A stretch of DNA of 64,000 nucleotides from an uncultured Porphyromonadaceae bacterium (GCA_945916235.1 CAMEGQ010000001.1:1-64000), one strand, 5' to 3'; counted from the first letter of the stretch, positions 3,072 to 61,907 are shown. A program made the numbers and translations. The notes: a model not told the origin generated them from the letters alone.

Positions 3072-3386
3072 ATGAAACAATTAGCTACTGGAATATATTA
3101 CGTCGTACAATATGTGCATCAGTTTAAGGATATTCCTCTTCAATCGTTCGAAAATACCACTTATGAATCGATTCACACGACATTGGAAGAGGCCAAAAAG
3201 GTCTATGAAAGAGAGCTGTCTATGAACCATTATAAGAAGATTGAGGAGTTGGGATTTAAGCCTACGGACGAGGAGTACGATAAACACTCGTTCAATCTCG
3301 GCATCGACCGGCTTACGGTGGATGAAGAGGGTGACAAAGAGTACGAGACTGTAGTGATGAGTGAACAAGATTATTATGATATTTAA
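3072..3386 (+). CDS. Hypothetical protein, about 104 aa
   Basis: ORF; start after leader repeat. Confidence 0.6.
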   Translation: MKQLATGIYYVVQYVHQFKDIPLQSFENTTYESIHTTLEEAKKVYERELSMNHYKKIEELGFKPTDEEYDKHSFNLGIDRLTVDEEGDKEYETVVMSEQDYYDI

Positions 3387-3418
3387 GCCCTCGACAGCAT
3401 CGGTTAAGTCAAAACAGT

Positions 3419-3694
3419 ATGATTAAATATACTATCCATTTCGTTTACGAAAATCCTTCATCAGATTGTTTGAACAATCTTGGAAAAACTGTATTAGGAG
3501 TCAATTCGCCAATAAGAAAACTTATTGCAAAAGGTACTTCATATAATGAAGAAGTTGCGTTGATTGAGTGCAACCAAATTGTAGGTGGAGATCTGAAACT
3601 TTACGATACATCTACATTCCACAACAAAAAAAGAAACTGCTACAGTAAACATGTAGGAAAAAGCAGTTTCCAGGTTAAGATTGAAAACGTATGA
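3419..3694 (+). CDS. Hypothetical protein, 91 aa
   Basis: ORF; second copy of leader repeat upstream. Confidence 0.6.
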   Translation: MIKYTIHFVYENPSSDCLNNLGKTVLGVNSPIRKLIAKGTSYNEEVALIECNQIVGGDLKLYDTSTFHNKKRNCYSKHVGKSSFQVKIENV

Positions 3695-3939
3695 AGAAGA
3701 CAGAATTTATTCAGATAGTGGAAGCTACCGGTAAGGAGTTCCGTATCGAAAAGACCATCAGCGGTTACTATCGCCTGATGGAAGGTGATAACATCTACCA
3801 CGACGACTCGGCAGACGAAGATGTCAGCGGGACCTACGAAGAGGCCGAAGCCTACTTTGCAAACATGCTCCTGGAGTATGAGGTTCCTGAGGATATGAAG
3901 GTGATGAGAGATGGTGTCTGGTTACTCAAGAAAGTTTAA
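3691..3939 (+). CDS. Hypothetical acidic protein, 82 aa
   Basis: ATGA overlap with preceding ORF. Confidence 0.6.
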   Translation: MKKTEFIQIVEATGKEFRIEKTISGYYRLMEGDNIYHDDSADEDVSGTYEEAEAYFANMLLEYEVPEDMKVMRDGVWLLKKV

Positions 3940-3942
3940 GAT

Positions 3943-4158
3943 ATGATGAATATGGAAAACATGACAATCAAAGAGTTTGTCAATGGCGTAAAGCAGTTTG
4001 TGACGGACAAAGAGACTGTGGCGAACTTTACAGTTAAGACAAAGGATAGCTACATCATTGAGATAACCGTTCAGATAGACGATGGGTCGTATGACGCGGA
4101 GAGAGCGGCTGAAGCTCAAGGTATGATAGATTTTGGCGAAGACCACAACGATGATTAA
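3943..4158 (+). CDS. Hypothetical acidic protein, 71 aa
   Basis: ORF in same operon, followed by a terminator. Confidence 0.6.
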   Translation: MMNMENMTIKEFVNGVKQFVTDKETVANFTVKTKDSYIIEITVQIDDGSYDAERAAEAQGMIDFGEDHNDD

Positions 4159-4190
4159 CCCGTCGCGGTGAGAGATGTACAATAAAGAGA

Positions 4191-4216
4191 AGAGGGCCAG
4201 CGTGCCCTCTTTTTTT
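4191..4216 (+). terminator. Rho-independent terminator
   Basis: agagggc-cagcgt-gccctct then T-run. Confidence 0.85.
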
Positions 4217-4280
4217 GTGTCCTTTTGTGTCGGGCATAGAGTGGTTAACTTTGCGATATGATTTAAAACGGAGGTAAACT

Positions 4281-5429
4281 ATGCTACTTACTACTGACGA
4301 CGAAATCCGTTCCTTGATGCCGACGAGCAAGTGGAACGATGTGGATATGCTGCTCTCTTGTGTGGAAGAGGAGGAGCAGAACGTGGTGCTTAATCTGCTG
4401 GGCGATGAGCTGATGAACCGCTTGGTGGCCGACTACGAGCGACTGAAGGCGGAGCATGGAGGGATTACCCCCGACGTGCTACGCCCCGATATGCTGGTAG
4501 ATCAGGCCGACCGCCAGGCGGTGCGGGCCATCCGTATCTGCCAGAAGATTCAGCTCTTCCTGGCTGTGGCTCATAATGCCGGACTGATGAGCGTGCAGTT
4601 CAACAGCGGTGGCGGACTGAACCAAGCCACGGCGGAGTACTACGAGAAGGCCGACGATAAGTCGGTAGAGCGATTCGTGAAGGATGCCTACATGAAGGCG
4701 CATCGCAATACGGACGAGCTGCTCACTCTGCTGGAGCATGACGCCCGCAGCCCACAACCGCTGTGGGCCGAGCTGTGGAAGCAGAGCCGCTACTACTTCG
4801 AGCAATCCAATCTGCTGATCACTACAGCCCTTCAGATGCAGTACTTCCTGAACATCAACAGCAGCCGCCAACGCTTCATCGAGTTGCTACCCGACCTCCA
4901 GTTTGTGCAGCAGCACTACATCAAGCCCCGACTGGGCGTCAAGCTGACTGAAGCCTTTATCCGCTTCAACACGAGCAACGAGGTGATTCACTACCCCTAC
5001 CATCCCGAAGCACAACCCGAAGGCGAAGCGCCAACCGAAGGCGAAGCGCAGGCCGAAGGCGAAGGCAGCCAACACCCCATCTACTCCGATGCGATGCTGG
5101 CGTGGTGCGATGCCATTCAACGCGTGCGCATGGCCATGGCCATCTTCACCGAGTGGCGCAACCCCCAGCTGCGCCGCAAGGAGAGCCTGGACGAGGCCAA
5201 CCTAAGCATAGCCTCTGCCGTAAGCTACATCAGCGAGAACCAGGAGTACTTCATGCCCTACATAGAGAGTTCGCCCTTCTACGTGAAGCCTGTGGTGGAG
5301 GAGGAGCTGACCGACGAAGAGCGCCAGCGTCAGAACCGCTGCATCTGCGGAGAGCCCCCCGCCTACGACCCCTGCAACCCAACGAATAAAGCCACCACCA
5401 TCTTCGGCCTGGGGCTGAGACAACACTAA
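4281..5429 (+). CDS. Phage structural-type protein, 382 aa
   Basis: Long ORF; PEGEA low-complexity repeat near residues 240-260. Confidence 0.6.
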   Translation: MLLTTDDEIRSLMPTSKWNDVDMLLSCVEEEEQNVVLNLLGDELMNRLVADYERLKAEHGGITPDVLRPDMLVDQADRQAVRAIRICQKIQLFLAVAHNAGLMSVQFNSGGGLNQATAEYYEKADDKSVERFVKDAYMKAHRNTDELLTLLEHDARSPQPLWAELWKQSRYYFEQSNLLITTALQMQYFLNINSSRQRFIELLPDLQFVQQHYIKPRLGVKLTEAFIRFNTSNEVIHYPYHPEAQPEGEAPTEGEAQAEGEGSQHPIYSDAMLAWCDAIQRVRMAMAIFTEWRNPQLRRKESLDEANLSIASAVSYISENQEYFMPYIESSPFYVKPVVEEELTDEERQRQNRCICGEPPAYDPCNPTNKATTIFGLGLRQH

Positions 5430-5469
5430 GAATGAATGTTTCTCAACCGTATAATTATAAATTGCGTAC

Positions 5470-7878
5470 ATGGACGGATTGGCATTGAAAATCGGTGAGC
5501 AGTGGGCCAAGCTCGCTGCGGGCACCAGCATTACGATAACGGAGAAGTCGCCCGTATTCAACGACGGCAACGCCTTCTCCATCCCCTTTCGGCTCAACGC
5601 GGAGATGAACCGTCACCTGCTGGGCAACGCTACCGAGGTGGAGGGCATCAGCTTCTACGAGGCCATCGACCGCAAGCCGGCCACCCTCTACGTGCAGGGC
5701 ATCCCCCTGTTCTACGGCGTCATCCGCCTCGACAGCGAAGAGGCCGCCATGGAAGACGGCTACATCGAGGTCAATCTGGAGAGCGGCAACCTGACCTTCA
5801 ACGACCGAATAGATGGCATGAACTGCCGCGACGTGCCGCTGAAGGATAAACTCTACATCGGTGAGAAGCTGAACGAACGAAACATCTATGTATCTGAAAG
5901 GGGGACGCACAAGGAGAGGCGCATCCTCTCTTATTGGCCGGACGTATATCAGCGCATGCAAGTGGACGGCATACTCAGCACCAACGAAGTGAATCCCTAT
6001 CCTATATCGCCTTATTGCAACATGCGTATCTGTTACAAGATGCCTGATGAGAACGGTGAGGGAGAGAATTACACCGAATTGACCGAAAAAAAGAAGGCCC
6101 TTATTGATAGCGAAATGAATAAGGCGGTCTATAATAATTACCTGGTGCTCGGAGCCGACCGAAAGATGTCTTCGCCATGCTTCTATGTGCTCTATTTCAT
6201 AGACTGCCTGTTTAAGCACCTGGGTATCTCGTTTGTCAACAATATAGCCTACATGGAGGATATGTGCCGACTGGCTTTCGTCAACATGGATTACTGCTAC
6301 GACCTGGAGGACAGTGGACGCAAAGTGACGGACTTTACCTATGTAACGAAGGGCTCTATCTTTGATTTTTGCGACACCTACATAGCCCAGCTGATTGGCG
6401 AAAGCAAATTAAACTTCCGCTACGAAGACCCCATATATTACTGTGTAGCCAACTCGAAGAACTTCCCCGACGAGGAGGTGAAGAACGTGATTGATGCGCT
6501 GTCTAACGGATTTGGCATAAGATTCATACCCAACCGAGAGAGCACACAGATAACAGCGGTCTATATTCGGGATATATTGCGGGATAATACGGCACCAGAG
6601 ATACCTTGCAAGGTATTGGAACTGGTAAAGACCGACCTGAATACACGTGGATTTAAGCTGACATACAACGGTTCGGAGGATGATACGGCTTACAACTACA
6701 GCGACTACAAGCAGGTGGAGCAGGTCACGGCATACAATGAAATCGTGGCCAAGGTGACGAGCAACAATAAGACAACCTATCTGGATAAGCGAAACGGCAA
6801 CGCCTACCGTGTGAAAATTGATGATGATGCAAAGTCTTCATCGGACGCACGGCCAGCGCTGTTTGAGGTGGGAGCGTTTGGTGATGCGACCTACGGTGAT
6901 TGCAGCGACGAGGAACTGACAGAGGTTGTGGAAGTAGGATTTGAGCCGGTCATAATGAATGATGTAGGATTTGGCTCGCGCAAGGATCGTATGAATCAGT
7001 CGCGTCGCTCTGATACCGTCAGCTTAGCAGATTCCGATTCGGGAGAAGGAGAAAGAGGGTATAGCGACGATATAAACAACGAACAGACCTTTGCTTTCTT
7101 CCTCGACGTGAGCATGAAGTACCCATCCTGTCCGCCGCTGATAGATTGCTCGATTTGGTTGAGTTTATCCAATCGTGGCACGATGGAGGGAGGTGTGAAA
7201 TATACCCAGTTCGTCCTTCAGCGATACGACGAGAGTTTTTCTACGACACGCAATGAGCTGAACAACCGTGTAACGGCAGACGGTCAAGGAAGAACTTCGT
7301 CATCACCGATGCCTACGCGCAGAGTGAATCAACCCGCAGATAAGTTTGACAACAAATCGCCTATACACAGCTACGACTGCGGATTGATGCTGGGCATCAT
7401 GCGAGGACCAGGCAATGAGTCGGGTATTGAAGACATTGAGGAGAACTACGACGAGGAGGGTAACTTTAAGTATGTGATGACGGGTAAAAAATCGGCCTTC
7501 CACAGCGACATCTGCGACAACTACAACCGCCTCTTTGACTACAACGGTACCGAGCAAGGTGGGGTGGATGTGAGCGGACGCTTCTCGCTGAAGCTGAGGG
7601 CTGAGAAACCGAACCCCGAAGGGGGATTCTTCCCGATTACCGACGTCAACATGCAGAAGCGCGGCCTCTTCGACAAGTTCTATGCCGAGTATGCCCACTT
7701 CGTCACCCATCGCAAGCTGCTGAAGATGAAGCTGCGCATCGAGATGGCCGACCTGCTGCGGATAGACTGGAGCAAGCGCTACACCATCGGCCAGTACAAA
7801 GGCTTCATCAACAGGTACGAATACACCGTATCAGATGAAGGGATGGGAGTCGTCTCGCTGGAGATGTACACGATGTAA
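5470..7878 (+). CDS. Phage tail/baseplate-type protein, 802 aa
   Basis: Long ORF in structural-type cluster. Confidence 0.55.
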   Translation: MDGLALKIGEQWAKLAAGTSITITEKSPVFNDGNAFSIPFRLNAEMNRHLLGNATEVEGISFYEAIDRKPATLYVQGIPLFYGVIRLDSEEAAMEDGYIEVNLESGNLTFNDRIDGMNCRDVPLKDKLYIGEKLNERNIYVSERGTHKERRILSYWPDVYQRMQVDGILSTNEVNPYPISPYCNMRICYKMPDENGEGENYTELTEKKKALIDSEMNKAVYNNYLVLGADRKMSSPCFYVLYFIDCLFKHLGISFVNNIAYMEDMCRLAFVNMDYCYDLEDSGRKVTDFTYVTKGSIFDFCDTYIAQLIGESKLNFRYEDPIYYCVANSKNFPDEEVKNVIDALSNGFGIRFIPNRESTQITAVYIRDILRDNTAPEIPCKVLELVKTDLNTRGFKLTYNGSEDDTAYNYSDYKQVEQVTAYNEIVAKVTSNNKTTYLDKRNGNAYRVKIDDDAKSSSDARPALFEVGAFGDATYGDCSDEELTEVVEVGFEPVIMNDVGFGSRKDRMNQSRRSDTVSLADSDSGEGERGYSDDINNEQTFAFFLDVSMKYPSCPPLIDCSIWLSLSNRGTMEGGVKYTQFVLQRYDESFSTTRNELNNRVTADGQGRTSSSPMPTRRVNQPADKFDNKSPIHSYDCGLMLGIMRGPGNESGIEDIEENYDEEGNFKYVMTGKKSAFHSDICDNYNRLFDYNGTEQGGVDVSGRFSLKLRAEKPNPEGGFFPITDVNMQKRGLFDKFYAEYAHFVTHRKLLKMKLRIEMADLLRIDWSKRYTIGQYKGFINRYEYTVSDEGMGVVSLEMYTM

Positions 7879-11109: not shown

Positions 11110-12360
11110 ATGTTGCGAGGCTACAAATACCGTATCTACCCAACCGAAGAGCAGCAAGTAATCCTTGCCAAGCATTTCGGCTGCGTGCGCTTTGTCTATA
11201 ACTGGGCGCTCGATACAAAGTCTCGCGCATGGAAGGAGGAACAGAAGAACCTCGGAGAGTTTGACTTGGTAAACAAGATGCAACGTGAGCTGAAGAATGA
11301 ATACGAGTGGCTGCGTGAGGTAAACTCTGGAAGCCTTTCGTATGCCATCCGCCAGATGAATGCGGCCTACCAGAACTTCTTCAAGAAAAAAGCCAAGTTC
11401 CCGAACTTCAAGAAGAAATTCGGAACGCAAAGGTTCAACTGTCCTCGTTTTAATAAGGCTGACTTCCGCCACGGACTTCTTGAAATCATGAAGTTCCGTG
11501 GTAAGAATGCCATCCGATGCAAGTTCCATCGACGTTTCTATGGTGAACTGAAGCGTGTCACCATCACTAAGGAGTGTGACGGTAGATACTACGCCTCCTG
11601 CCTGGTAGAAGACAGCTTCACGCCACTACCTCAGAAGAAGGTATTGCGTGAAACTGCCATCGGTATTGATACCGGGTTGACGCATTTCGCAACGCTGTCA
11701 ACCGGCGAAAAGATTGCTTCTCCCAAAATGTCAAAGAACGCTTCGCTGCGGATGGCTCGCTTGCAGCGTTCGCTTTCGCGAAAGAAGAAAGGCTCTTCCA
11801 ATTACGCCAAAGCAAAGCTGCGTATCGCTCGCCTACATTCCAAAGTCGCTCACCGCAGAATCGACTTCCTGCACAAACTCACATACAGACTGACTCACGA
11901 AAGCCAAGTGAGTTGCATCTGTGTAGAGGATCTGAACGTACAGGGGATGATGAAGAACCATCACCTTGCGTACAGTATAGCCGATGCCGGGCTTGGAGAG
12001 TTCTATCGCCAACTCGCCTACAAATGCGATTGGTATGGCGTAGCCTACCGAGTGATTGACCGCTTCGCTCCATCGAGCAAGCTGTGTCACCATTGCGGCC
12101 ATCGGATGAACAAAATGCCGCTATCTGTGCGGAGGTGGACGTGCCCGGAATGTGGCACCCACCATGACCGAGACATCAACGCGGCTAATAATATTAAAGA
12201 ATTTGGCCTAATGGCCCTACCCGTGCAACGCGGGGAAGTCAAGCCTGTGGAGAAGCCTCCCGTGGACGACCGTGCTACTATGCACCTAAGAAGCGATGCT
12301 CCTAAGAAGCAGGAAAAGTCTGTGAGAGCTATCTCGCAAGCCGATAAGTCTTTAGCTTAG
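11110..12360 (+). CDS. tnpB: TnpB/OrfB RNA-guided nuclease, 416 aa
   Basis: RuvC D/E/D motifs intact, zinc ribbon. Confidence 0.93.
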   Translation: MLRGYKYRIYPTEEQQVILAKHFGCVRFVYNWALDTKSRAWKEEQKNLGEFDLVNKMQRELKNEYEWLREVNSGSLSYAIRQMNAAYQNFFKKKAKFPNFKKKFGTQRFNCPRFNKADFRHGLLEIMKFRGKNAIRCKFHRRFYGELKRVTITKECDGRYYASCLVEDSFTPLPQKKVLRETAIGIDTGLTHFATLSTGEKIASPKMSKNASLRMARLQRSLSRKKKGSSNYAKAKLRIARLHSKVAHRRIDFLHKLTYRLTHESQVSCICVEDLNVQGMMKNHHLAYSIADAGLGEFYRQLAYKCDWYGVAYRVIDRFAPSSKLCHHCGHRMNKMPLSVRRWTCPECGTHHDRDINAANNIKEFGLMALPVQRGEVKPVEKPPVDDRATMHLRSDAPKKQEKSVRAISQADKSLA

Positions 12361-33487: not shown

Positions 33488-34738
33488 ATGTTGCGAGGCT
33501 ATAAATACCGTATCTATCCCACCGAAGAGCAGCAAGTATTCCTTGCCAAGCATTTCGGCTGCGTGCGCTTTGTTTACAACTGGGCGCTCGATACTAAGTC
33601 TCGCGCTTGGAAGGAGGAGCAGAAAAACGTTACGAGATTGCAACTGCAAACTCTTCTTGCATCAGAACTGAAGGTAAACAATGAATGGCTATCCGAAGTA
33701 AATGCTCAGAGTTTACAATTTGCCATCAAGCAGATGGATGATGCCTACCAGAATTTCTTCAAGAAAAATGCCAAGTTCCCGAACTTCAAGAAGAAATTCG
33801 GAGTACAACGTTGCAATTTTCCTCAGAGCAACAGGGCCGACTTCCGACACGGACTGATTGAAATCATGAAGTTCCGTGGGAAGAACGCTATCCGATGCAA
33901 GTTCCACCGACGTTTCCACGGAGAACTGAAGCGCGTCACCATCATCAAGGAGTGTGATGGCAGATACTATGCCACCTGCCTGGTAGAAGACAGCTTCACG
34001 CCACTACCTCAGAAGAAGGTATTGCGCGAAACATCCATCGGTATTGATACCGGGTTGGCGCATTTCGCAACGCTGTCAACCGGAGAAAAGATTGCTTCGC
34101 CAAAGATGTCAAAGAACGCTTCGCTGCGGTTGGCTCGCTTACAGCGTTCGCTTTCGCGTAAGAAGAAAGGCTCTTCAAACTACACCAAAGCAAAGCTGCA
34201 TATCGCTCGCCTTCATTCCAAGGTCGCTCATCGCAGAAGCGACTTCCTGCACAAACTCACATACAGACTCACTCACGAAAACCAAGTGAGTTGCATCTGT
34301 GTGGAGGATCTGAACATAATGGGAATGATGAAGAACCACCACCTTGCGTACAGCATTGCCGATGCTGGCCTCGGAGAGTTCTACCGCCAACTCGCCTACA
34401 AATGCGAGTGGTATGGCATAGCATACCGAGTGATTGACCGATTCGCTCCTTCGAGTAAGCTGTGCCACCATTGCGGTCATCGGATGAGCAAAATGCCGCT
34501 ATCTGTGCGAAGGTGGACGTGCCCAGAATGTGGAACCAACCACGACCGCGACATCAATGCGGCGCAGAACATCAAAGAATTTGGCCTAATGGCCCTACCC
34601 GTGCAACGCGGGGAAGTCAAGCCTGTGGAGAAGCCTCCCGTGGACGACCGTGCTACCAAGCACCTAAGAAGCGATGCTCCTAAGAAGCAGGAAAAGTCTG
34701 TGAGAACTATCTCACAAGCCGCTAAGTCTTTAGCTTAG
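33488..34738 (+). CDS. tnpB: TnpB/OrfB RNA-guided nuclease, 416 aa (mosaic N-terminal part)
   Basis: RuvC D/E/D motifs intact; residues about 45-110 diverge from other copies. Confidence 0.93.
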   Translation: MLRGYKYRIYPTEEQQVFLAKHFGCVRFVYNWALDTKSRAWKEEQKNVTRLQLQTLLASELKVNNEWLSEVNAQSLQFAIKQMDDAYQNFFKKNAKFPNFKKKFGVQRCNFPQSNRADFRHGLIEIMKFRGKNAIRCKFHRRFHGELKRVTIIKECDGRYYATCLVEDSFTPLPQKKVLRETSIGIDTGLAHFATLSTGEKIASPKMSKNASLRLARLQRSLSRKKKGSSNYTKAKLHIARLHSKVAHRRSDFLHKLTYRLTHENQVSCICVEDLNIMGMMKNHHLAYSIADAGLGEFYRQLAYKCEWYGIAYRVIDRFAPSSKLCHHCGHRMSKMPLSVRRWTCPECGTNHDRDINAAQNIKEFGLMALPVQRGEVKPVEKPPVDDRATKHLRSDAPKKQEKSVRTISQAAKSLA

Positions 34739-35745: not shown

Positions 35746-36984
35746 AATCTAAATCTAATTTTCCTTGCATGTATTTCTCGGAATACCATTGTTTATATGA
35801 TTTCCCACTCATCCACCAATCAAAGATGGCTTCGGCAATTTCATCCTCATAAGATTCGTTCTGCCCCCCCCAATTTACTTGTTGAGAGGGGCTATCGAAA
35901 AATTTTCTGATGATCCTCCGTGTAAGGATGAGTCCCGGATTGTCTGTTCCGGTCCATCTTGTTTCCCCAAAGTCCCCTGATTGTGGTTGGTAATCGGAAT
36001 CCACATTGCTGTTTCGTAGAATTGCCCCGACGTGTAGCGGTGTCCGAATCTGTTCTGTATAGGAAATACCCCCCCCCCCGTATGAGCAATTGCTGCATCC
36101 ATTTTGTTGGGATGTTCCACCAGATGAATCCTTCCTTGAATACCCCCCCCCGAACGTATGGCTTTGATAGCCTTTATCCATCCTCGTTTTACATGTGGAA
36201 ACATCTTCATATCTCTCTGTTTGCTCTTCTTGTTCGACATAGGACATAGAATACATCCTATTCGGCTATATCCCATATCGTAAAGCTCGCAGTGAGGAAC
36301 ATTGACTATATCGTTAAGGAAGTACCACACATCATCCTCAGTCCATTGGAATATAGGTGATATAAGTATAGAATCCTTTCCGTTGATGCAGCGCACCTCG
36401 TTGTCAGTCTTTATGGAAAACTCGTCTTCATTGACTTTTCGCTTTGTTTTTGATAGCTTTTTCTCTATCTCGGCTTGACTCCACGCGTCAAATCCTTCAA
36501 GGTCTCCGCCGAACTTTCTGCTCTTCACCTCTACTTCATGTCGTTTGGCTCGCCTTGCGCTCTCTGCTGCACGCACACCGATAAGAGTTACCTTCCCGGC
36601 TCCTGCACTCTCCTTAAAATCTGCACAACACCAGCGCACGCGCATTGTGGGTAAGATGCCTCTTTCTATCGCCTTATCAAACATAGACATCTTTGGCTTG
36701 ATGAGTTCAACATCAGGATATTGTCTCTTTACGAAACGTATCACCTGTGGAGGGTCAACGCTTGTAAGCGACATGTGACCCTTAAACTTAACGCCTGCTA
36801 ACTCTGCTAAATGGTAGAGTGCCTGACTGTCTTTTCCTCCGCTAAATGCAAGATAATAACCATCGGTATTATCGTACATAAGTGCGATGCGTTCAGCCTT
36901 GCGAAGTAACTCTACGCTGTGCATAAGTTTGGTTTTGAACGACTGCTTGCAGCGGTCCAATGCTTCTTGATAACTTAAATTCAT
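35738..36984 (-). CDS. PAPS-reductase/CysH-like protein, frame broken at poly-G tract
   Basis: YLAFSGGKDSQALYHLAELAGVKFK..., CILCPMSNKKSKQRD; N-part in ORF 35875-36984, C-part (FDWWMSGKSYKQWYSEKYMQGKLDLDFE) in ORF 35738-36256. Confidence 0.7.
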
Positions 36985-49749: not shown

Positions 49750-52700
49750 ATGGTAAGCAAGCAGGAAAGTAGGATATACTATATCGAGAAGGGGCGTTTA
49801 ATCTTCGTGGAGAACGACCTTGACAACCCCAACCGCATCGCTGTAAGCGTCAGCTCAGGTACCACCATCCAGGTGTACGACGAGAGTTTGATAGGCTTTA
49901 TGAGCGATGGCAAGTTCTATTCATGGACGCTGAAGGGCTTCAGTACCAAGCTGGCCAAGAACGACGCCTACTACATCTACGCCCGCCTCGATCGCACCGG
50001 CGTAGATGCCCTCGTGGTATTCAGTATCAACCAGTACAACCTCGACGGTAGCCGAGCCAACGCCCCCGAAGGCGAGGAGAACCCACCCAGCGATCAGTAC
50101 TACTACGTGCGCATTGGTGAGGTAACCGCCACCGACGGCACCACCAACCGCGAAGTGACCTACGACAGCGGCATGCTTGGCACCACCAAGGATGTCTATG
50201 AAAACGCCGGCGCCGCACAGCTCAACGAGATGTTCGAGCTCAACAAGACGAGCGACCCCTGGTACATCATCGTAAAACACTACTTCTACGACCTCACCAT
50301 CAAGCGCTCGCTCAAGCTGATAGGCAGCCTAATCTGGGGCGGAAAAGAGTTGAAAGGCGTACATACCACCGAGGACATTGCCAATCAAACAACTCCTGAT
50401 GACGAACACCTGGCTACAAGTGCCTATACGCAGCAATTCGGAGACAAACGATACCTCCGCAAGGACCAGGATGACCGCACAGAGCACTCGCTGGGGATTG
50501 GCAAAGATTTAACCGTTGGAGGTTCGCAGGCTGTTAGAGGCGACCAAACGGTTGGCGGTAATCAGACGGTGGATGGCACTTCGCTTGTCAAGGGGTTGCT
50601 CTCGCTGCTGACTGGGGCCGCTTCGCCCGACTTTATCGCTGGATTGCTTGGTACTGGGTTTGAACTTCGTAAGGATGAGGAGACAGGGCGCTGGCGGTTA
50701 GAGATTGATGAGTTAGTGACGAGGGTGAGGGCTATCTTTTACGAGTTGGTCATTCAAAAGATGAAGCACATTGGCGGGGCGTTAGTGCTGTCTCCTGGTT
50801 CGATGAGTTGCGTTCGTGTGGAGGAAACGGAGGATGCTTACCGCTGCTACTTCAAGGCTACCGACGGGGAGCGCAGCGTGAAGCAGGAGTTTGAGGTAGG
50901 CGACTTGGCCCGAAGTCAGTCGTTCAACCTCAAGGCGCTCGACGGGGGTGGTGTGGGTACCTCCTTCTATTGGCGACTGGTGACCGCTGTGGGTGAGGAT
51001 TGGATTGAGTTATCCAAGACGCATTGCGCAGAGGGTAGCGGTATTCCACAGGCTGGCGATGACATTGTACAGATGGGTAATCTGACGGATAGCAGTAGGC
51101 AGAACGCTACCATTCTTGATACCACGGGTAGCGACGCTCCCAGTATCAAGCAGTACCGAGGCATCAATGGGTATGTGCTCAACGATGATATGGCTATTAC
51201 TATCTTCTCTTCGAAGTTAAACCGCATCCGTGGGCAGTTCATATCCGAGGTGACGGGCAAGGATGTGGACGAATCGCTCAAGGATATTCAGGTTGACCTG
51301 GAGACGGTGAAGGCGCAGAGCGACAGGGAGTTTACGATTTGGTTTTTCGAAGTGAACCCTACGACTGAAAATCTGCCTGCTTCAGCATGGACTACCGACG
51401 CCATGAAGCGTGAACATGTGGAGGATATTTATTACAACCGGGAGGCTGGTCTTGCTTGGCGCTGGATGGCTACGGATGATGGCGGTTACTACTGGGAGGA
51501 TATTAAAGACCAGCAGACGTTGCGTGCGTTAGAGAAGGCGAGCCGAGCCCAAGACACCGCCGACAGCAAGCGACGTACGTTTGTGGCGCAGCCTACCGAC
51601 GCAGATGCTTACGATGTGGGGGACCAATGGGTTAACGTAACCTACCCTGTTGGTGAAACAGACGAAGAGAAACTGGTCTATAAAAACGATGCCTTAGTGT
51701 GCATACAGGCTAAACCAGCCGGGGTGTCGTTTAATATATCACACTGGAGGGCGACTACGGAGAATACGACCCGTGAGATTAAAGCTAAAATGGAGATTCT
51801 GGAAAAGAGTATAACGTCCAGTGTGGGTAGCGATAACGCGGCCAGAGATGAAGCCATTAAAAAGGCGAAAGAGGCTGCTGAGGGGGCGCTAATTGCTGCT
51901 GGAAATGCTGATGGTAAAGCGGGTACGGCTATCTTACAGACCCAGAATTACATCAGCGCCATGTCTGCTTACTTCGAGTATGATAAAGAGGGAAATGTTG
52001 TCAGTGTAAAGAGTGGCGGTTTGTTGCTGACTTCTGATTTTGCCACGATGTTCAGCGAGGCGGTTGACAAATCAGGCATTGTTAAGAGGGCTGAGATTAG
52101 CACCATGGTGACTAAGGACGAGAAAGGCAACCTGGAAAGCGGTGTGAAAATCAGCGCCGACCAGATTAACATGACGGGTACCGCTCAGTTCTACTCGAAG
52201 GATGCAGCGGACAGCATGGCTCAAGGAAAGGTTGATGCGCTGAAGGGCTTGCTTAAAGGGTTAGCCTATAAGGATAAGGTTGGGCTTGAACATATGGATG
52301 GCACTGTTATTGATGGCGGAAAAATCCTAACCAGCTTGATTAAAGCTGATGAACTTCAGGTAAAGAGCGTCCACGCTGAGAACAGCGATGGTACAACTAC
52401 CTGTCACATTGATGGTAAAACGGGTAAGCTGACGGCGAAGAACGCTGAGTTTGAAGGGAAGATAGCGGCTACCTCAGGTACCGTAGGAGGATTTGCTATC
52501 GGTAACGGTGTTATTGGTACCGAATTAGGGGACTATACTCCGATTAATGATAAAAATTATATGTCATTATCTCACAGTGGATTTTCAACAAGAAGAGAGA
52601 TGGTTGATATGGATACTAACAATATGCTACGTGGTTATAAAGATTATTCCAATATATCACCCGGTTCAATAATATGCCACCAAGAATACACGGGAAGTCT

Positions 52701-52818
52701 ATTCCCTTCTTCAGATGCATGTGCAGCAGAATTTATCTGTAATAAATATGGGTTAAAAGTTTCTGCTTCAGGTATTTTTAAAACGTCCGATGGTGGAAAA
52801 ACATGGGTTGAACTATGA
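49750..52818 (+). CDS. Tail/fibre-type protein, 1022 aa
   Basis: Repetitive LTVGGSQAVRGDQTVGGNQTVDG; position upstream of DGR target. Confidence 0.65.
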   Translation: MVSKQESRIYYIEKGRLIFVENDLDNPNRIAVSVSSGTTIQVYDESLIGFMSDGKFYSWTLKGFSTKLAKNDAYYIYARLDRTGVDALVVFSINQYNLDGSRANAPEGEENPPSDQYYYVRIGEVTATDGTTNREVTYDSGMLGTTKDVYENAGAAQLNEMFELNKTSDPWYIIVKHYFYDLTIKRSLKLIGSLIWGGKELKGVHTTEDIANQTTPDDEHLATSAYTQQFGDKRYLRKDQDDRTEHSLGIGKDLTVGGSQAVRGDQTVGGNQTVDGTSLVKGLLSLLTGAASPDFIAGLLGTGFELRKDEETGRWRLEIDELVTRVRAIFYELVIQKMKHIGGALVLSPGSMSCVRVEETEDAYRCYFKATDGERSVKQEFEVGDLARSQSFNLKALDGGGVGTSFYWRLVTAVGEDWIELSKTHCAEGSGIPQAGDDIVQMGNLTDSSRQNATILDTTGSDAPSIKQYRGINGYVLNDDMAITIFSSKLNRIRGQFISEVTGKDVDESLKDIQVDLETVKAQSDREFTIWFFEVNPTTENLPASAWTTDAMKREHVEDIYYNREAGLAWRWMATDDGGYYWEDIKDQQTLRALEKASRAQDTADSKRRTFVAQPTDADAYDVGDQWVNVTYPVGETDEEKLVYKNDALVCIQAKPAGVSFNISHWRATTENTTREIKAKMEILEKSITSSVGSDNAARDEAIKKAKEAAEGALIAAGNADGKAGTAILQTQNYISAMSAYFEYDKEGNVVSVKSGGLLLTSDFATMFSEAVDKSGIVKRAEISTMVTKDEKGNLESGVKISADQINMTGTAQFYSKDAADSMAQGKVDALKGLLKGLAYKDKVGLEHMDGTVIDGGKILTSLIKADELQVKSVHAENSDGTTTCHIDGKTGKLTAKNAEFEGKIAATSGTVGGFAIGNGVIGTELGDYTPINDKNYMSLSHSGFSTRREMVDMDTNNMLRGYKDYSNISPGSIICHQEYTGSLFPSSDACAAEFICNKYGLKVSASGIFKTSDGGKTWVEL

Positions 52819-54139: not shown

Positions 54140-57100
54140 ATGCAAAAAATTAGCTTAAACAAAATCTTGGACGTTATCAAGGAGGTATGGTCTAAGGATG
54201 AGCGCAACGGATTGCCCTACTCTGGTAAGGCGGTGCGTGAGGCGATACAGGGTAAGTTGGCCGAGCACGAGGAGGTATTCAAGGCGAAGGGTGGTGCCTT
54301 TTTCCGCACCACAGACAAGCAGAGCGATGGCGCCTATCACATCTTGCTCTTCGCTTCGCAAGCCGACAAGAACGAGTGGCTGGAGATGAAGGAGTCATCG
54401 CTGGTGCTGGATGACATCAGTCTGCCTGATGAATCGGGTATGGCTTCGACTACCGTCGTGGCGTTAAAGACCAGTTCACCCACTACGATTATCTCGACGG
54501 ACAACACGGTGAAGTTGCTCCTGAAGTTTACTTCGCAGATTTATAACCCTCTCGACAAGAGCGCCACAGACACGGGCGAACAGGGTACGCTGACGGTGCA
54601 GACCCGACCCAACAGCAACGGGAGCTGGGTTACCAAGGGTACGTTTACCGTCGCTTCGGTGCCAGTGGATAGCGAGCGCTACGATGAGTTTGACATCACC
54701 GATATGACCTCAAGCGGCGCCCAGCAGGTGCGTGTCTTCGTCAAAGGTAACGAATCGTCGATGAGCACCAACTTTATCACTTTCGCAGTGACCAAGACCG
54801 CCCTACGACTCTCGTTCGCTACGACGTGGGAGACGCCTCAGAGTGGTGCGAACATCTCGTTGGCCTACTGGATTACTGGCGCTGTGGATAAGACGCTGCG
54901 CATCCGTACCACGGGCTCAACGGGAGCTCGTGAGTTCAGCTATTCGTTGGGCATGAACACCTATACGGAGACCCCCTTCACGGCCTACCTGAACGACGCA
55001 GGCTCCACCAACCTTATCCTGAAGCATGGCGTGCACACCTTTGAGGCATGGCTTGACGCTGGCTCTGCGGAGTCGGACCATGTGTTTGGTCAGATCATTT
55101 ATTTAGAAAGCGGTGTAACAACAGACAAGCCGATGCTGGTGATTAACTCGGCGCCTGAGACGCTGATTAACTGGACATCGGTTGACTTCTGCGAGTATGC
55201 GGTCTATAAGCAGGGTGCGTTGAGCTGTGAGGAGATTCCGTTGACCTTCTACTTCAAGAATTACAAAGGTGATGTAGAGTACCTCAAACAGAGCGTGAGC
55301 GTGGTGAACGGTCAGCGCAACACGCTATCAGGCGGATTGCAGATTGATTCAGAGGCTGAGATGATTGACGTCTATCTCTCGTGCGAGTGGAACGGTGAGC
55401 GCATTGGCAGCGTGCAAGGCTACCAGGTGGATAACAGGGATAACTTCTCACCGACCAAGGGGGCGGACTTCGTATTCAACCCCAAGAACAGAAGCAACAG
55501 CGAAACCAACCGAGACCAGGTGATTAACGACGCTACGGGAGAGGTGGTTGAGAGTGTGATGACAGGTATCGCCTTTGACGCCACCGATGGCTATACGGTG
55601 ACAGAGCTGGGTAAGTGCTTTAGGCTGAAGTACGGCCAATTCATGCACATCAAGTATGACCCATTGGTCGCATTCGCTGACTCCAGCAAGAGCTCAGCCA
55701 CCTTCATCATCGACTTCTGCAACCACAACATCACCGACGAGGAGAGCCCGATTGTGAGCGTTTGCAGCAAGCTGACCAACGGCAACCCGTTGGGCTTCGA
55801 GATGCGCCCACTGGATGCCGTGTTCATGACCTTGGCCAACCAGGTGCGTGATGACCAGCGCACAGGGTTGGAAGAGGGCGTGAAGCAGCAGCTGGCGCTG
55901 AACATTGTCTATAACGTGGGTAACACGGGGCGCAACTATGTGCGTATGTTTGTCAATGGTCGCCACCGTCGCACCTTCGCTTACGAGGATAATGATACCT
56001 TCGTACAGGCCGTTGATGGCGTCATTGGCAGCGGTGGCATCCGCATCGGTTCGCCAGGGGCGGAGATTGACATCTTCCGCATCGAGGTCTATAAGAAGGC
56101 GCTCTCTGAGGCGGATATTCGCAAAAATTACATTGCGGCCATCGCCACGATTGAGGAGAAACGCAAGGAGCGCGATGCCAACGACATCCTTGGCGATAAC
56201 GGCTCTATCAGCTACGAGAAGGCTAACAAGATTTACCCCTGCCTGTTGTGGCGACCCAGTGAGAAGACGGGTGTCTCTACCCGCCTCTGTAAGTATGGCG
56301 ACACGAAGGAGACCGTGATGTATGGCGACCTGGTGATTCTTGACCCGACGGGCCGAGTTGAGATTGGCGTGATACACGACGTAGCGATGAGCGGTCAGGG
56401 TACATCATCAATGAGCTACTGGAAATGGAACCAGCAGTGGAAGTGGCTGGCTGAGACCTACTTCTTGGCGGCCGACGGCACCAGATACAGCGGCTACTCG
56501 CTGATTAAGGGGATGCCATCTGCGAAGAAGCTGTGCGCTAAGATTAACTGGGCTTCGTCGATGCAGAGCCATAAGATGGGTGCTACGGCCCTCTATCAAG
56601 ACCTCTACCAATTAGTAGTGGGCGATACGGAGATTACCGCTACGGAGGGATTCGAGAACTGCCGACTGGCTGTGAAGCAGATGCCGTTCCTCTTCTTCGT
56701 GCAAGAGGAGGTAGGCGGAGAGATTACCTTTGCTGGTCAGTGCACCTTCGGACCGGGCAAAGGCGACAAACCGACCTTCGGGTACGACAAGTCGGTGTTC
56801 CCCGACTACATCTCCCTGGAGGGTGCGGATAACGGCGCCCCACTGGTTAACTGCAAAGTGCCTTGGAATGAAGACATCGTAGAAAAGGAGGAGGAGTGGA
56901 CTTACAATGGTGCTACGCAATGGGAGTTGATGCTGGGCAAGAAAAATCAAATCCAGCGCTACATCGACCGCACCAACTTCTGTTACAGACTCTCGCCAAA
57001 CATCCTCCCCTTCGCAGGGACCTATACCCAACTCCAGGCAGATTCGACGCTAAACAAGGACCGCATGTACTGGGTGACGCAAGCAGAGAGCGGTTCAGCC

Positions 57101-60016
57101 AAGTATGACCTCTATCGCTGGGATTACCTCACCTCGTCGTGGGTTGATGCAGGTGTGAACAAACTGCCTGGTGGCGGCTATGAAAAGCTGAATATCAACG
57201 AACAGTGTGGCGGTATCGCCTCGGGTAACGATTACGACGCCATCAACCAACTCTTCATCAACTGCCGTGTGGCGGAGTTTGCTAACGGCATCGGTGACTT
57301 CATCGTGATTCGTGACGCGCTGTTCCGCCTCTGTTACGACCGCATGGTGGCCGCTAAGGATAACCGAGCCAAGAATACCTATGAGGCTATCTTTACTACG
57401 GGAGGAAAGATACGCAGCCAGGCGGATGACTTGGACTCTATTGGTCCACAGAATAACGTGGGTAAGGACAAGGTTCCCTACTACGCCCTGGAGTGGATGA
57501 AGGATGCCGACGGAACCAGCTATTGGAACGCCTATGATAACGCTTACTACCGATTGTTGGAGCTGGCCTTCCCCAACGAGCTGCGCAGCATGATGCACGA
57601 GCTGCTTACAGCGATGGCGACGCTTGGCGGCACACCGATGGGGTGTATGAAGAAGTACTTCTTCGACACCGTGACGGAGGAGTTTCCAGCCGTGTCGTAC
57701 AACGAGACCGCCCGCATCTGGTATGAAGACGCAGACGTGGCGATGAACCGAGGCGAGTACCAGTGTAACACCGCCCCACTAACCCAATCGCTTGGCGACC
57801 AGCTCAACTCAGAGCGCGAGTGGTACAAGAAGCGCCTGGTCTTCCTCTCCTCCTACGCCAGCTATGGCGAATTTGACCGGGGTGAGGTGAGTGGTGCCCT
57901 CTCGTTCCGCTCGGTGACCAACCGAGATGGAAGCAATCCAACCTACTCGTTTACGCTTACCCCGCATCAGTGGCTCTTCCCGGCGATTGGCGCTGGCGAC
58001 AGTGTGCTTTACGGCGCTGGGAATGATGCGCCTGTGATGGTGAAGGCTGGCGAGACGATTACACTGCATGGCATCTCAGCGGATGGTAACACCAACATCC
58101 GCATCCTGGGCATCAACTACTACCGCAGCATCGGTGAGTTCGGTGACAAGGCGTTGGCAGACACCTTCCAATTATCGGGTGAGCGGTTGACAGAGTTCTC
58201 TGCCAACGTGTCTGGTGGTAACGAGTTCCGCCCAGCCTCCATGCGCGTGACAGCGCCCAACCTACGGCATATCGATGTGACGGGTGTAAGCAGCCTGGGC
58301 GGACGGCTGGATTTATCCAACCAGACCCGATTGGTCAGCGTTAAGGCCAAGGGTACGGCGCTGACCGAGGTAGTGATGCCGAGCTGCGTGACGCTGAATA
58401 CCGCCCACCTGCCAGCCGGATTGACCAAGCTGGAGCTGACAGGGCAACCCTCGCTGACGGATTTATCGCTCGATAGCACGGTGAATCTGTCGATTGTACG
58501 GTTGGCTGGATTTGACAGTTACCCATTGGCTCGATCACTGTATAACAACTATGTCAGCGGCAAAGGCAACCTGCAAATATTCAGCGCAAAGGGTGTGGAT
58601 TGGAAGGATATTCCAGCGGCTATGATGAAGTATTACACCGAGTTAGCCAACTGTGAACTGACAGGACGCATCAGCGTAAGCAACCTCGATGATGTCGATT
58701 TCCGCTTGAAGACGAAGCTGTTGAAGCGCTTCGGCGCTGTGGATACGGGCGCTGACGGGTTGTTAGTGACCTACCGCGTGGTACGGTTGACTGGTGTGAA
58801 GGTGATGGGACCGGTCTATCTGCGCACAACGGGTAAGAAGAGTTACGGCGTGATGCCAACCCCTGCCACGGCTAATAACATCACCTCATGGCGACTGACC
58901 AGCGGCAACGACCTCTACCCCATTGATAGCGATGGTGTGATGCAGGTGAACAGCATCCAAGCGGAGGGCTCAGACCCCTTCGAGGTATCACTGACGGTTG
59001 ATACCTTGAGAGACGGCACGCTGAGCGCCTCAATGAACGTGTGGCCCACCAACCACACCCCGAAGGTGGGCGACTTCTTCTATGCCGACGGCACCACCTC
59101 GGAGGCCGACCGGGTGGAGTACGGCAAGACCAACCTGGGCATGGTGTGGTTTGTCAACCAAGACAACCCCAATGACATCCGAGGCGTGCTGAAGCAGTTC
59201 ATCAACACCGGTGCACAATGGGGTATCTTCCAAGACAACTGGAGCAATCTGAAGTTGACCGACATGCCAGACTATAACGTCTTCGACGTGCCTGGCGTAG
59301 TTAACATGGGTTCGGCTGGTGTATCGCCTACATCGGATGCCTACTTGGATGCGAGCAATGAGGCTGGCGGCGGATTTGCCCGACTGGACCCTTCGACCGC
59401 AACGGGACAAATTGGCTTAGTTACCTTGGATAGCGACATCCTGGATTACAAGGCTGGTACGGTGATGCCCATTGGTAAGGCGCAGACCTTGCGTATCGTC
59501 AACCACTGTCACATTATCCTTCGAGACAGCAGCGTGGGTGTCGGTGTACCTGTTGCGTCGGAGAATGAAACGGAGTATGATGCCGTACTCCGCATGAGCC
59601 AAGAGTTCGTGGCTGGCAAGGAGTCGAAGTACATTCAGTTCTTCTACCTACCGGCCATGTTGTCGTACGCTTACGAGCCTAAGTGTGAGTATGAAGGTGA
59701 GGTATTGGCCGATGAGTTCAAGGCTCACAACTGGTACCTTGGCTCAGCTGGTGAGATGGGTCGTTGCGCCTTCTTCGACTGGGCCGCCAACCAATCAAGC
59801 AAGCCAAATGTGGTCAAGATGGCCATCTTTAAACAGGCTATCATTGACGGTCTGTTCGGACCTTGGGGAAGCCGCGGCGCCTGGTCGTCGTCGGAGTACT
59901 CGGTCACGCTCAACGCTTGGTACGCCTCGTTTCCTGGCGGGTCGGTGGCGTTCACCGGCAAGTACGGCGCTTTCGCGGTGCGCCCCTTCGTCGCATTGAA
60001 AAATTCGGTCGGCTGA
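54140..60016 (+). CDS. DGR target: 1958-aa tail-type protein with C-terminal CLec-type variable domain
   Basis: LamG-like segment near residues 540-680; C-terminal WSSSEYSVTLNAWYASFPGGSVAFTGKYGAFAVRPFVAL contains VR. Confidence 0.88.
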   Translation: MQKISLNKILDVIKEVWSKDERNGLPYSGKAVREAIQGKLAEHEEVFKAKGGAFFRTTDKQSDGAYHILLFASQADKNEWLEMKESSLVLDDISLPDESGMASTTVVALKTSSPTTIISTDNTVKLLLKFTSQIYNPLDKSATDTGEQGTLTVQTRPNSNGSWVTKGTFTVASVPVDSERYDEFDITDMTSSGAQQVRVFVKGNESSMSTNFITFAVTKTALRLSFATTWETPQSGANISLAYWITGAVDKTLRIRTTGSTGAREFSYSLGMNTYTETPFTAYLNDAGSTNLILKHGVHTFEAWLDAGSAESDHVFGQIIYLESGVTTDKPMLVINSAPETLINWTSVDFCEYAVYKQGALSCEEIPLTFYFKNYKGDVEYLKQSVSVVNGQRNTLSGGLQIDSEAEMIDVYLSCEWNGERIGSVQGYQVDNRDNFSPTKGADFVFNPKNRSNSETNRDQVINDATGEVVESVMTGIAFDATDGYTVTELGKCFRLKYGQFMHIKYDPLVAFADSSKSSATFIIDFCNHNITDEESPIVSVCSKLTNGNPLGFEMRPLDAVFMTLANQVRDDQRTGLEEGVKQQLALNIVYNVGNTGRNYVRMFVNGRHRRTFAYEDNDTFVQAVDGVIGSGGIRIGSPGAEIDIFRIEVYKKALSEADIRKNYIAAIATIEEKRKERDANDILGDNGSISYEKANKIYPCLLWRPSEKTGVSTRLCKYGDTKETVMYGDLVILDPTGRVEIGVIHDVAMSGQGTSSMSYWKWNQQWKWLAETYFLAADGTRYSGYSLIKGMPSAKKLCAKINWASSMQSHKMGATALYQDLYQLVVGDTEITATEGFENCRLAVKQMPFLFFVQEEVGGEITFAGQCTFGPGKGDKPTFGYDKSVFPDYISLEGADNGAPLVNCKVPWNEDIVEKEEEWTYNGATQWELMLGKKNQIQRYIDRTNFCYRLSPNILPFAGTYTQLQADSTLNKDRMYWVTQAESGSAKYDLYRWDYLTSSWVDAGVNKLPGGGYEKLNINEQCGGIASGNDYDAINQLFINCRVAEFANGIGDFIVIRDALFRLCYDRMVAAKDNRAKNTYEAIFTTGGKIRSQADDLDSIGPQNNVGKDKVPYYALEWMKDADGTSYWNAYDNAYYRLLELAFPNELRSMMHELLTAMATLGGTPMGCMKKYFFDTVTEEFPAVSYNETARIWYEDADVAMNRGEYQCNTAPLTQSLGDQLNSEREWYKKRLVFLSSYASYGEFDRGEVSGALSFRSVTNRDGSNPTYSFTLTPHQWLFPAIGAGDSVLYGAGNDAPVMVKAGETITLHGISADGNTNIRILGINYYRSIGEFGDKALADTFQLSGERLTEFSANVSGGNEFRPASMRVTAPNLRHIDVTGVSSLGGRLDLSNQTRLVSVKAKGTALTEVVMPSCVTLNTAHLPAGLTKLELTGQPSLTDLSLDSTVNLSIVRLAGFDSYPLARSLYNNYVSGKGNLQIFSAKGVDWKDIPAAMMKYYTELANCELTGRISVSNLDDVDFRLKTKLLKRFGAVDTGADGLLVTYRVVRLTGVKVMGPVYLRTTGKKSYGVMPTPATANNITSWRLTSGNDLYPIDSDGVMQVNSIQAEGSDPFEVSLTVDTLRDGTLSASMNVWPTNHTPKVGDFFYADGTTSEADRVEYGKTNLGMVWFVNQDNPNDIRGVLKQFINTGAQWGIFQDNWSNLKLTDMPDYNVFDVPGVVNMGSAGVSPTSDAYLDASNEAGGGFARLDPSTATGQIGLVTLDSDILDYKAGTVMPIGKAQTLRIVNHCHIILRDSSVGVGVPVASENETEYDAVLRMSQEFVAGKESKYIQFFYLPAMLSYAYEPKCEYEGEVLADEFKAHNWYLGSAGEMGRCAFFDWAANQSSKPNVVKMAIFKQAIIDGLFGPWGSRGAWSSSEYSVTLNAWYASFPGGSVAFTGKYGAFAVRPFVALKNSVG
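59868..59998 (+). repeat. DGR variable repeat (VR)
   Basis: 131-nt gapless alignment to TR; all 16 mismatches at TR adenines. Confidence 0.95.
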
Positions 60017-60032
60017 CTTTTGTCGGCCGACC
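60007..60032 (+). promoter_or_regulatory. DGR post-VR hairpin/cruciform
   Basis: GGTCGGCTGAC-TTTT-GTCGGCCGACC, 11-bp stem (one wobble), 9 nt after VR. Confidence 0.88.
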
Positions 60033-60084
60033 TCACGCCGCAAGCTGGCCGGACAATTAACGTTTAACAATCCAATAATAAGTA

Positions 60085-60471
60085 ATGAAAGCAAGACAAT
60101 CATCCGTTTACCGAAATCAAGAGTTGCTTTTGCACACCTTGAATAGGTGCTTCGATAAAGTCCCGAATAAATTTCATCGCCAATGGCAGGCCGCTGTCTG
60201 CACGACCACCCTGATGAGCGCCATGAGACACGTCGATATGGCGCTTCGAACTAAGGATGCTCAGGCTCGGATGGAGATACTCGAAGCGATTTGCGTTGAA
60301 ATGGCTGACGTGAAGGTTGTTGTAAGGGAGTTCAGCGTGAAGGATTCTCCTAAAGACCCCACGATTATCAGCTTCAATCAGTACGCTGAAATAGCGAAGC
60401 TGCTCGAAAAAATCGCTCGTGACCTTCAGAAGTGGATGATTGCCACAATGTCGCTTAATAAGGTGAAATGA
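60085..60471 (+). CDS. avd: DGR accessory variability determinant (Avd-like)
   Basis: 128-aa helical ORF between VR and TR/RT; ATGA overlap with downstream ORF. Confidence 0.85.
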   Translation: MKARQSSVYRNQELLLHTLNRCFDKVPNKFHRQWQAAVCTTTLMSAMRHVDMALRTKDAQARMEILEAICVEMADVKVVVREFSVKDSPKDPTIISFNQYAEIAKLLEKIARDLQKWMIATMSLNKVK

Positions 60472-60564
60472 CCATGATTGTGACACCTTGTAGTTTATCT
60501 TTAAATGGACTCTCCACAGGTGGGTGTGACCCACTCGTTAAGAACAAGATAGCGAGAGCCATCA

Positions 60565-60695
60565 GAAGCCGCAACGCCTGGTCGTCGTCGGAGAACTCGA
60601 ACACGAACAACGCTTGGTACGCCTCGTTTCCTGGCGGGTCGGTGGCGAACAACGACAAGAACAACGCTTACGCGGTGCGCCCCTTCGTCGAATTG
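60565..60695 (+). repeat. DGR template repeat (TR)
   Basis: Adenine-rich codons AAC/AAN; see VR. Confidence 0.95.
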
Positions 60696-60731
60696 GAGGA
60701 TGACTACTTAGCCTCATGGATTGAGGCGTTC

Positions 60732-61907
60732 ATGGATTGTGCTAAACGTAAAAAGAACTCCAAGGCGTTCGATGACTATCGACCGCTGTGTGAGGAAGAC
60801 ATTGTCCGGCTGGCAACGGCGTGTTATACACGCACCTACCAGCCTCTGCCATCCATACGCTTCGGCGTCAAATACCCTCGTCCAAGGGAGGTGTTCGCTG
60901 CACAGTTCCGTGACCGCATCGTGCATCACTGGATTTACCTGCGTGTGGTTGAACTGATTGAAACCAGATACCAACAGATGGGTGATGTATCTATGAACTG
61001 TCGCAAGGGGTTCGGACCGCAGTTGGCGGTCAAGACATTGGCCGGTTTCATCGAGGAGGTCAGTGAGGGCTACACCAGGGAGACATGGATAGGTAAGTTC
61101 GACCTGAAGGCTTGCTTCATGTCGGTGGATGTCAAGCTGTTGATAAGCCTAATCGAGAGCGAGCTGTTGGCCGACTACCAGGGCGATGACAAGGCGTTGC
61201 TGGTGTGGCTGATTGGCGTGACGCTGAGGAACAGACCGCAAGAGGGTGCTATCACCCGTGGCGACCCGATGCTGTTGGAGGCTATTCCATCGAACAAGAT
61301 TCTGCGAGGCGAGAACGGTGTGCCAATCGGTAACCTGCCGAGCCAAATCTTTGTGAACTACTTGCTAACCTATCTGGATGAGTTTATCCTTGATTACCTG
61401 TCGGAACACGAGCCACAGGCGCACTATCTGCGCTTCGCTGATGATTTTGTTGTGGTCTGTCGAGATAAGGAGACGGTCAAGGCGGTGCGTAGGCTGGCCG
61501 CTGAGTTCCTGCGTGAGCGGTTGAAGCTGACGCTACATCCCGACAAGGTCTATATCCAAGAGGCAAGGCACGGGGTGCGGTTCCTTGGGTCGGTGATTAG
61601 ACCGGGAAGAGTATATGCCGATGAAGCGGCAGTGCGTGCGCTGGGTCGGTCGTTGGAGCGGCTGGAGCGGGCTTGTCAGAGAGGGTGTTCTACGGATGAG
61701 TTGGAGCGGAGGGTAAGCAGTGTCAACTCCTATTTGGGGATGATGAGCCACGCCAAGAGCTACGCCATCCGGCGGAGGATGCTGAGTGAGAAGGTTCACT
61801 TGTGGCGTTATTGCTATGTTGTCAAAAAATTCTTAATCCTTAAAATCAAAAAGTGTTATGTTAGAGATTACAGAGATGAGCTGGAGCAGAAGGTTACTCC
61901 AGCGTGA
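60732..61907 (+). CDS. DGR reverse transcriptase (frame open from 60468, through the TR)
   Basis: VPIGNLPSQIFVNYLLTYLDEF and YLRFADDFVVVCRD motifs typical of DGR RTs. Confidence 0.93.
   Translation: MDCAKRKKNSKAFDDYRPLCEEDIVRLATACYTRTYQPLPSIRFGVKYPRPREVFAAQFRDRIVHHWIYLRVVELIETRYQQMGDVSMNCRKGFGPQLAVKTLAGFIEEVSEGYTRETWIGKFDLKACFMSVDVKLLISLIESELLADYQGDDKALLVWLIGVTLRNRPQEGAITRGDPMLLEAIPSNKILRGENGVPIGNLPSQIFVNYLLTYLDEFILDYLSEHEPQAHYLRFADDFVVVCRDKETVKAVRRLAAEFLRERLKLTLHPDKVYIQEARHGVRFLGSVIRPGRVYADEAAVRALGRSLERLERACQRGCSTDELERRVSSVNSYLGMMSHAKSYAIRRRMLSEKVHLWRYCYVVKKFLILKIKKCYVRDYRDELEQKVTPA

Follow-up and report, generated by a model that had tools for sequence, protein, structure and literature searches.

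A phage DGR with a conserved structured RNA on the 5′ side of its template repeat

Most knowledge of how DGR cDNA synthesis begins and ends comes from one element, BPP-1, which has a structured RNA 3′ of its template. Retron RNA carries a structured RNA 5′ of the template, and an a1/a2 helix pairs both ends. In BPP-1, the structured spacer (sp), located 3′ of the template repeat (TR), brings in RT-Avd, and cDNA is primed from an internal adenine at the 3′ end of TR (PMC12875486); a hairpin stands on the IMH side (PMC3240598). DGRs whose TR overlaps an annotated reverse transcriptase (RT) ORF have been known since 2012 as DiGReF structural group 3 (PMC3521204), and variation of the variable repeat (VR) is linked to host range in the F phages of Bacteroides uniformis (PMC8143477).

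Here we analyze a DGR in a 64,000-nucleotide stretch of DNA (hereafter the window) from an uncultured Porphyromonadaceae bacterium (GCA_945916235.1, CAMEGQ010000001.1:1-64000). It shares with BPP-1 the order target(VR)-avd-TR-RT, A-specific differences, Avd, the RT fold (8ub7), and a stem-loop after VR. BPP-1, however, has its sp RNA 3′ of TR and a 144-nt gap between TR and brt, whereas in the window the structured RNA lies 5′ of TR, a helix (P1) joins both TR flanks, and TR is located inside the RT ORF. The loop after VR also differs, being GRNA in BPP-1-like phage DGRs (PMC3240598) and TTTT in the window. As in DiGReF group 3, TR overlaps the RT ORF, an overlap that the 2012 text treats as a cassette layout (PMC3521204) and that by itself is already known. 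The likeness to retron msr-msd RNA (PMC8867640) is one of layout only: structured RNA lies on the 5′ side, and an a1/a2-like helix (P1) encloses the structured RNA and the template. Unlike retrons, the window has an RT of the DGR clade and a TR/VR retrohoming signature, and its product is predicted to be mutagenic cDNA for VR, not msDNA.

Among Bacteroides phages, the B. uniformis phages F1–F4 (Bacuni; PMC8143477) belong to the same 47-row RT clade as the window, but their TR lies outside the RT ORF and their targets are small (about 250 aa). An element-like fold and a P1 (GUUAUCUG/CAGAUAAC) can be seen by eye flanking TR in Bacuni F2 (L055), although neither covariance model (R1 and R2) detected the element there. 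The cultured Bacteroides phage BS-TP1 (PQ571274) resembles the window in that the depositor's RT CDS contains TR, the element scores 24.6 bits with R2, and P1 is strong; it differs in an RT identity of only 37% and in a record without TR or RNA annotation.

Taken as a whole, the window holds a phage DGR predicted to vary the C-terminus of a tail-type protein, and its template RNA is probably organized from the 5′ side, unlike the BPP-1 type, with a retron-like topology.

The DGR and its phage

An earlier note on this DNA had described a complete phage DGR. Nearly every testable feature supports the locus as genuine and complete: TR/VR differences confined to TR adenines, Avd, an RT of the DGR clade, a VR at the C-terminus of the target, and a stem-loop after VR were all found (Table 1). 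On realignment, TR and VR matched without gaps over 131 bp, with 16 mismatches at exactly the positions listed in that note (TR 60573, 60574, 60594, 60600, 60601, 60606, 60607, 60648, 60649, 60652, 60655, 60660, 60663, 60664, 60670, and 60691), every one at a TR adenine. The chance that 16 of 16 random mismatches would fall on A, with 29 A in 131 bases, is 4.9e-13. From TR to VR, the substitutions comprise 7 A>T, 6 A>G, and 3 A>C. Homology, which the note had ending sharply at 59998/60695, is lost abruptly at both ends.

At 60691, the mismatch probably reflects a fixed difference of the TR/VR border (IMH/IMH*) rather than mutagenesis: GAA (TR)/GCA (VR) recurs in phage L062, and further relatives show a constant GCACTT/GCATTT difference there. 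On that reading, 15 mutagenesis sites would be left.

The 11-bp hairpin with a TTTT loop that the note placed after VR was recovered as well. Stem-loops follow VR in most relatives, with unrelated stem sequences, and the loop (60018-60021 in the window) varies among them (tttgac, ttcgac, cttcca). Profile matches bore out the adjacent Avd-like and DGR-type RT genes. Avd, whose position also fits, matched Pfam bAvd (E 2.8e-5, below the curated cut-off) and phrog_3206 'Avd protein of DGR' (E 7.7e-5), while RT, which carries the motifs IGNLPSQ and FADD, matched Pfam RVT_1 (E 1.4e-12) and the PHROG RT (E 7e-63). By sequence and by predicted fold, the closest solved structure to RT is the BPP-1 DGR RT/RNP 8ub7, and in the RT tree the window groups with other TR/VR-bearing (DGR) RTs.

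Table 1. Features of the DGR in the window, with positions counted from its first nucleotide
Feature	Position	Strand	Description and basis
DGR target	54140..60016	+	1958 aa, phage tail-type protein, VR at its C-terminus; ORF, phrog_24896 E 1e-92
Variable repeat (VR)	59868..59998	+	TR/VR alignment
Post-VR stem-loop	60007..60032	+	GGTCGGCTGAC-TTTT-GTCGGCCGACC, 8 nt after VR, 11 pairs (one G-T); counterpart of the BPP-1 IMH-side hairpin
avd	60085..60471	+	128 aa; stop overlaps RT ORF start (ATGA); Pfam bAvd, PHROG
RT ORF	60468..61907	+	479 aa: leader 1-32, TR-encoded ~33-76, DGR RT core from 78
P1, 5′ strand	60472..60502	+	Duplex scan
Structured RNA element	60501..60562	+	Adjoins TR; covariance model R1, 54.2 bits, E 1.6e-12 (the window is a training row)
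J1/2	60503..60508	+	Linker of P1 and P2, conserved as AAAUGG; possible site of priming or recognition
Outer stem P2	60509-60515 with 60552-60559	+	
Inner hairpin P3	60516-60538	+	Starts AC, ends GU
3′ bulge	60539-60551	+	13 nt, UAAGAACAAGAUAG-like
Template repeat (TR)	60565..60695	+	In frame with RT; TR/VR alignment
P1, 3′ strand	60696..60719	+	First codons of RT core; starts one nucleotide after TR; duplex scan

The target gene follows a tail ORF (49750-52818) and precedes holin/endolysin genes. It has a weak Pfam Lcl_C match at residues 1862-1949 (E 0.066). AlphaFold2 gave a low-confidence model of its C-terminus, and a PDB fold search with that model returned no match; we therefore make no structural claim of a lectin fold.

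The phage contig also carries three transposase genes of one family (phrog_506) at 526-1782 (-), 11110-12360 (+), and 33488-34738 (+), which we take to be TnpB-like. A fourth similar ORF, recognized by sequence only, lies beyond the window (C1, about 83594-84847, -). To our knowledge, several copies of one transposase family in a single phage are unusual. A PAPS-reductase-like gene (phrog_424), a phage auxiliary gene, is present at 35875-36984 (-).

Elsewhere in the same genome, the only TR-like place is one 24-bp match on contig C23, part of a second, different DGR in the same bin (G000; L043, L190:3077-6120, minus strand). Its TR and VR lie 268 bp apart with mismatches at A in 10/10 cases, its RT ORF spans 3077-4429 and its target 4927-6120, and its neighbors are phage-like.

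Comparison of close relatives with identical TR indicates that the DGR family of the window diversifies VR in nature. L010 and L013 are identical over 2779 bp but for 11 differences, all 11 in VR at TR-adenine positions. Between L065 and L066 there are 19 differences, 18 of them in VR and all of these (18/18) at TR-adenine positions. L170 and L177 have the same TR and agree throughout 1224 bp of flank, and their VR differences fall at TR-adenine positions in 16/16 cases. A TR-specific 30-mer of the window had no match in IMG/VR. Loss of VR near L057 and L058 was considered and, for L057 (IMGVR_UViG_3300038333_000024), refuted: VR is present at 1119-1214, 29.5 kb from TR on the same contig. The L057 layout would mean that the DGR works at a distance or across the ends of a circular genome.

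A structured RNA bracketing TR

The structured element ends close to the start of TR/VR homology (median distance 3 nt, n = 26). Across 24 sequences, standard pairs fill 93.0% of pair cells compared to 70.1% when shuffled, cells changed on both sides number 72 compared to 19.3, and sliding the register by one column lowers pairing to about 22-27%. This alignment was fitted to the model, and the first MAFFT alignment (ten rows) agrees on the covariation. J1/2 is conserved at A4 (23/24), A5 (24/24), G7 (23/23), and G8 (24/24) in alignment A5. A covariance model built from 10 rows finds the held-out L059, L073, L064, and L066 at E <1e-6.

Model R2 found no element at E 5 or better in 68 loci of other RT clades, nor in the second DGR of the same genome (L043), and in L055, L072, and L012 the element is apparent by eye but unsupported by R2. 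Run with strict filters on 395 genomes from the order, R2 returned the window only. RNA motif scans of IMG/VR added L170, L173, L177, L184, and L185 as new members, while L171, L172, L175, L176, L180, L182, L183, L186, and L187 were rejected as chance matches. Comparison with Rfam gave no match for the elements of the window, L048, L052, L055, and L062. The architecture was not found described in Rfam or in the open-access papers searched, and it is new relative to these.

The element also lies directly 5′ of TR where TR is outside the RT ORF (L054, L069, L076, and L080; at 30 nt in L084). Because these unfused relatives keep it, the element appears to go with the template and not with RT translation.

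The long-range helix P1 links the 5′ flank of the element to the 3′ border of TR, so that TR is bracketed by RNA structure. We compared own-phage with cross-phage duplexes over 432 pairs of sequence windows and obtained a single clear peak at which own-phage duplexes are the stronger ones (-5.6 kcal/mol, z -7.3). There, the 20 nt preceding AAUGG pair with the 3′ border of TR; a permutation test gave 0/100000. The strands of P1 differ among phages: in L068 they read AUAAUCCAUUAA/UUGAUGGAUUAU, L081 and L089 show a compensatory C-G/U-A change, and L052 has an unrelated yet complementary pair. Single-sequence scores are modest (z -2.0, p 0.04 in the window), those of L054 and some others not being significant. 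A wide-window own-versus-cross test was discarded as evidence, since unrelated DGRs also reach z of about -3 through a composition effect. For these two reasons the case for P1 rests on the positional scan.

Constraint at synonymous sites follows the same borders. Pooled over seven independent pairs, the synonymous difference pS stays at 0.31-0.37 through P1, the element, and TR, rises to 0.66, 0.74, and 0.76 from 18 nt past TR, and is 0.75 in the rest of RT. The scan of these pairs thus showed no synonymous constraint beyond P1 that would mark a sp-type RNA downstream of TR.

These data bear on whether the locus is an ordinary BPP-1-type DGR, with a sp-like RNA downstream of TR, in the RT coding region, that handles both RT recruitment and priming, and with a 5′ structure whose only role is to halt cDNA or protect the RNA. 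We regard this as unlikely. The BPP-1 RT is the closest to that of the window, and the element adjoins the TR 5′ end, a position that suits a cDNA stop, BPP-1 itself having its stop signal 5′ of TR and its sp 3′ (PMC12875486). However, the gap of 144 nt that BPP-1 has between TR and brt contrasts with an RT core beginning 0-4 nt after TR in many members here, the synonymous rate past P1 equals the RT average with no conserved RNA seen downstream, and P1 would be superfluous for a pure stop signal. With no room 3′ of TR and no sign of RNA constraint there, the data are most simply explained if the 5′ element takes the role of sp.

TR in frame within the RT ORF

The RT ORF reads through TR in the frame that VR uses in the target. 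IMG/VR, GTDB genomes, and phage records supplied 146 RT loci. An RT tree places the window in a clade of 29 rows (SH-aLRT 97), and TR is in frame within the RT ORF in 27-28 of these 29 members (some apparent from sequence), with L076 as the exception. L057, L058, L060, L096, and the truncated L044 had been scored 'no TR' by the detector but are in frame on inspection; L087 is in frame too, but without an ATG upstream of TR. In-frame TRs scattered elsewhere in the tree (L031, L097, L100, L124, L125, and others) are attributed to chance, as they are isolated and those tested lack the element. A genome of the same family, G025, carries the same DGR type on contigs C207 (L045:1-185, minus) and C135 (L044), with an assembly break inside TR. 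TR/VR repeats probably hide such assembly-broken loci from detectors.

Between the leader motif and the end of TR, 24 members show 12 different distances, each divisible by 3, so indels keep the frame. The two other frames of the leader contain stops in 24/24 and 21/24 members, and L059, L064, L011, L068, and L052 have no ATG, GTG, or TTG between TR and the RT core. Given open frames, frame-keeping indels, and five members without a later start, RT is likely translated from upstream of, or within, TR. In the window, RT may start at a GTG or TTG inside or at the end of TR. The interpretation in the earlier note was therefore incomplete, not wrong, having missed both the in-frame overlap and the template RNA with its conserved structure.

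Control of RT translation or transcription by the 5′ element, as a leader regulator unrelated to template function, would fit its place between the avd stop/RT start and the RT core, and P1 of the window covers the second ATG (60474-60476). This seems to us very unlikely, since the element stays directly 5′ of TR in the unfused relatives, whose RT begins beyond TR, and since P1 pairs with the TR border in fused members.

The least probable reading is that the N-terminal segment encoded by TR acts as protein, for instance as a lectin-like docking tag, and that conservation reflects the peptide: the peptides LNGRxT and LVKNK are conserved and were first read in this way, Pfam Lcl_C, the target-domain family, matches RT ORF residues 21-72, and leader pN/pS is lowest in frame 0, but that constraint is weak (0.62 compared to 1.15 and 0.79 in the other frames), low pS and covarying stems place the conservation at the RNA level, the RNA element is retained in relatives that lack the fusion, and AlphaFold2 assigns pLDDT <50 to almost all of residues 1-74. 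A helix begins at residue 78, directly after TR, in a block with pLDDT >90. On this model, the N-terminal peptide (leader and TR) looks like a disordered passenger, carried along because the RNA also serves as mRNA.

Proposed template RNA and its implications

Our proposal that the template RNA is organized from the 5′ side builds on the computed TR/VR pattern, RT and Avd identity, RNA covariation, P1, the extent of constraint, the in-frame overlap, and VR variation in relatives. The functional RNA would run from the 5′ strand of P1 through the P2/P3 element with its 13-nt bulge and TR to the 3′ strand of P1. P1 would place the TR 3′ end, where cDNA starts, beside the 5′ element, which in turn adjoins the TR 5′ end, where cDNA must stop. 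We infer that RT-Avd binds the 5′ element in place of sp. Priming of cDNA would occur at the P1/TR border, possibly in retron fashion from a 2′-OH in the conserved AAUGG linker or in the bulge; termination would occur at P2/P3. Adenine-mutagenic retrohoming would then diversify the C-terminus of the tail-type protein. Template and RT mRNA would be one molecule in the window's clade, the RNA forming the 5′ part of the RT coding sequence.

Extended to the whole clade of Bacteroidota-phage DGRs, the proposal is more tentative, and we give it somewhat less than an even chance: a 5′ scaffold would start cDNA in a retron-like geometry and replace the 3′ sp, and in most members it would also be translated as the RT N-terminus, one RNA serving as template, scaffold, and mRNA.

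Cultured phages with related DGRs (BS-TP1 and the B. uniformis F phages) make this architecture testable. The segment from P1 to P1 is short and defined, which suits it to engineered targeted mutagenesis, and template borders marked by the element could serve DGR detectors. If the proposal is true, DGR template RNAs are of more than one design in phages of gut and rumen Bacteroidales, and DGRs would be linked to a retron-like RNA organization.
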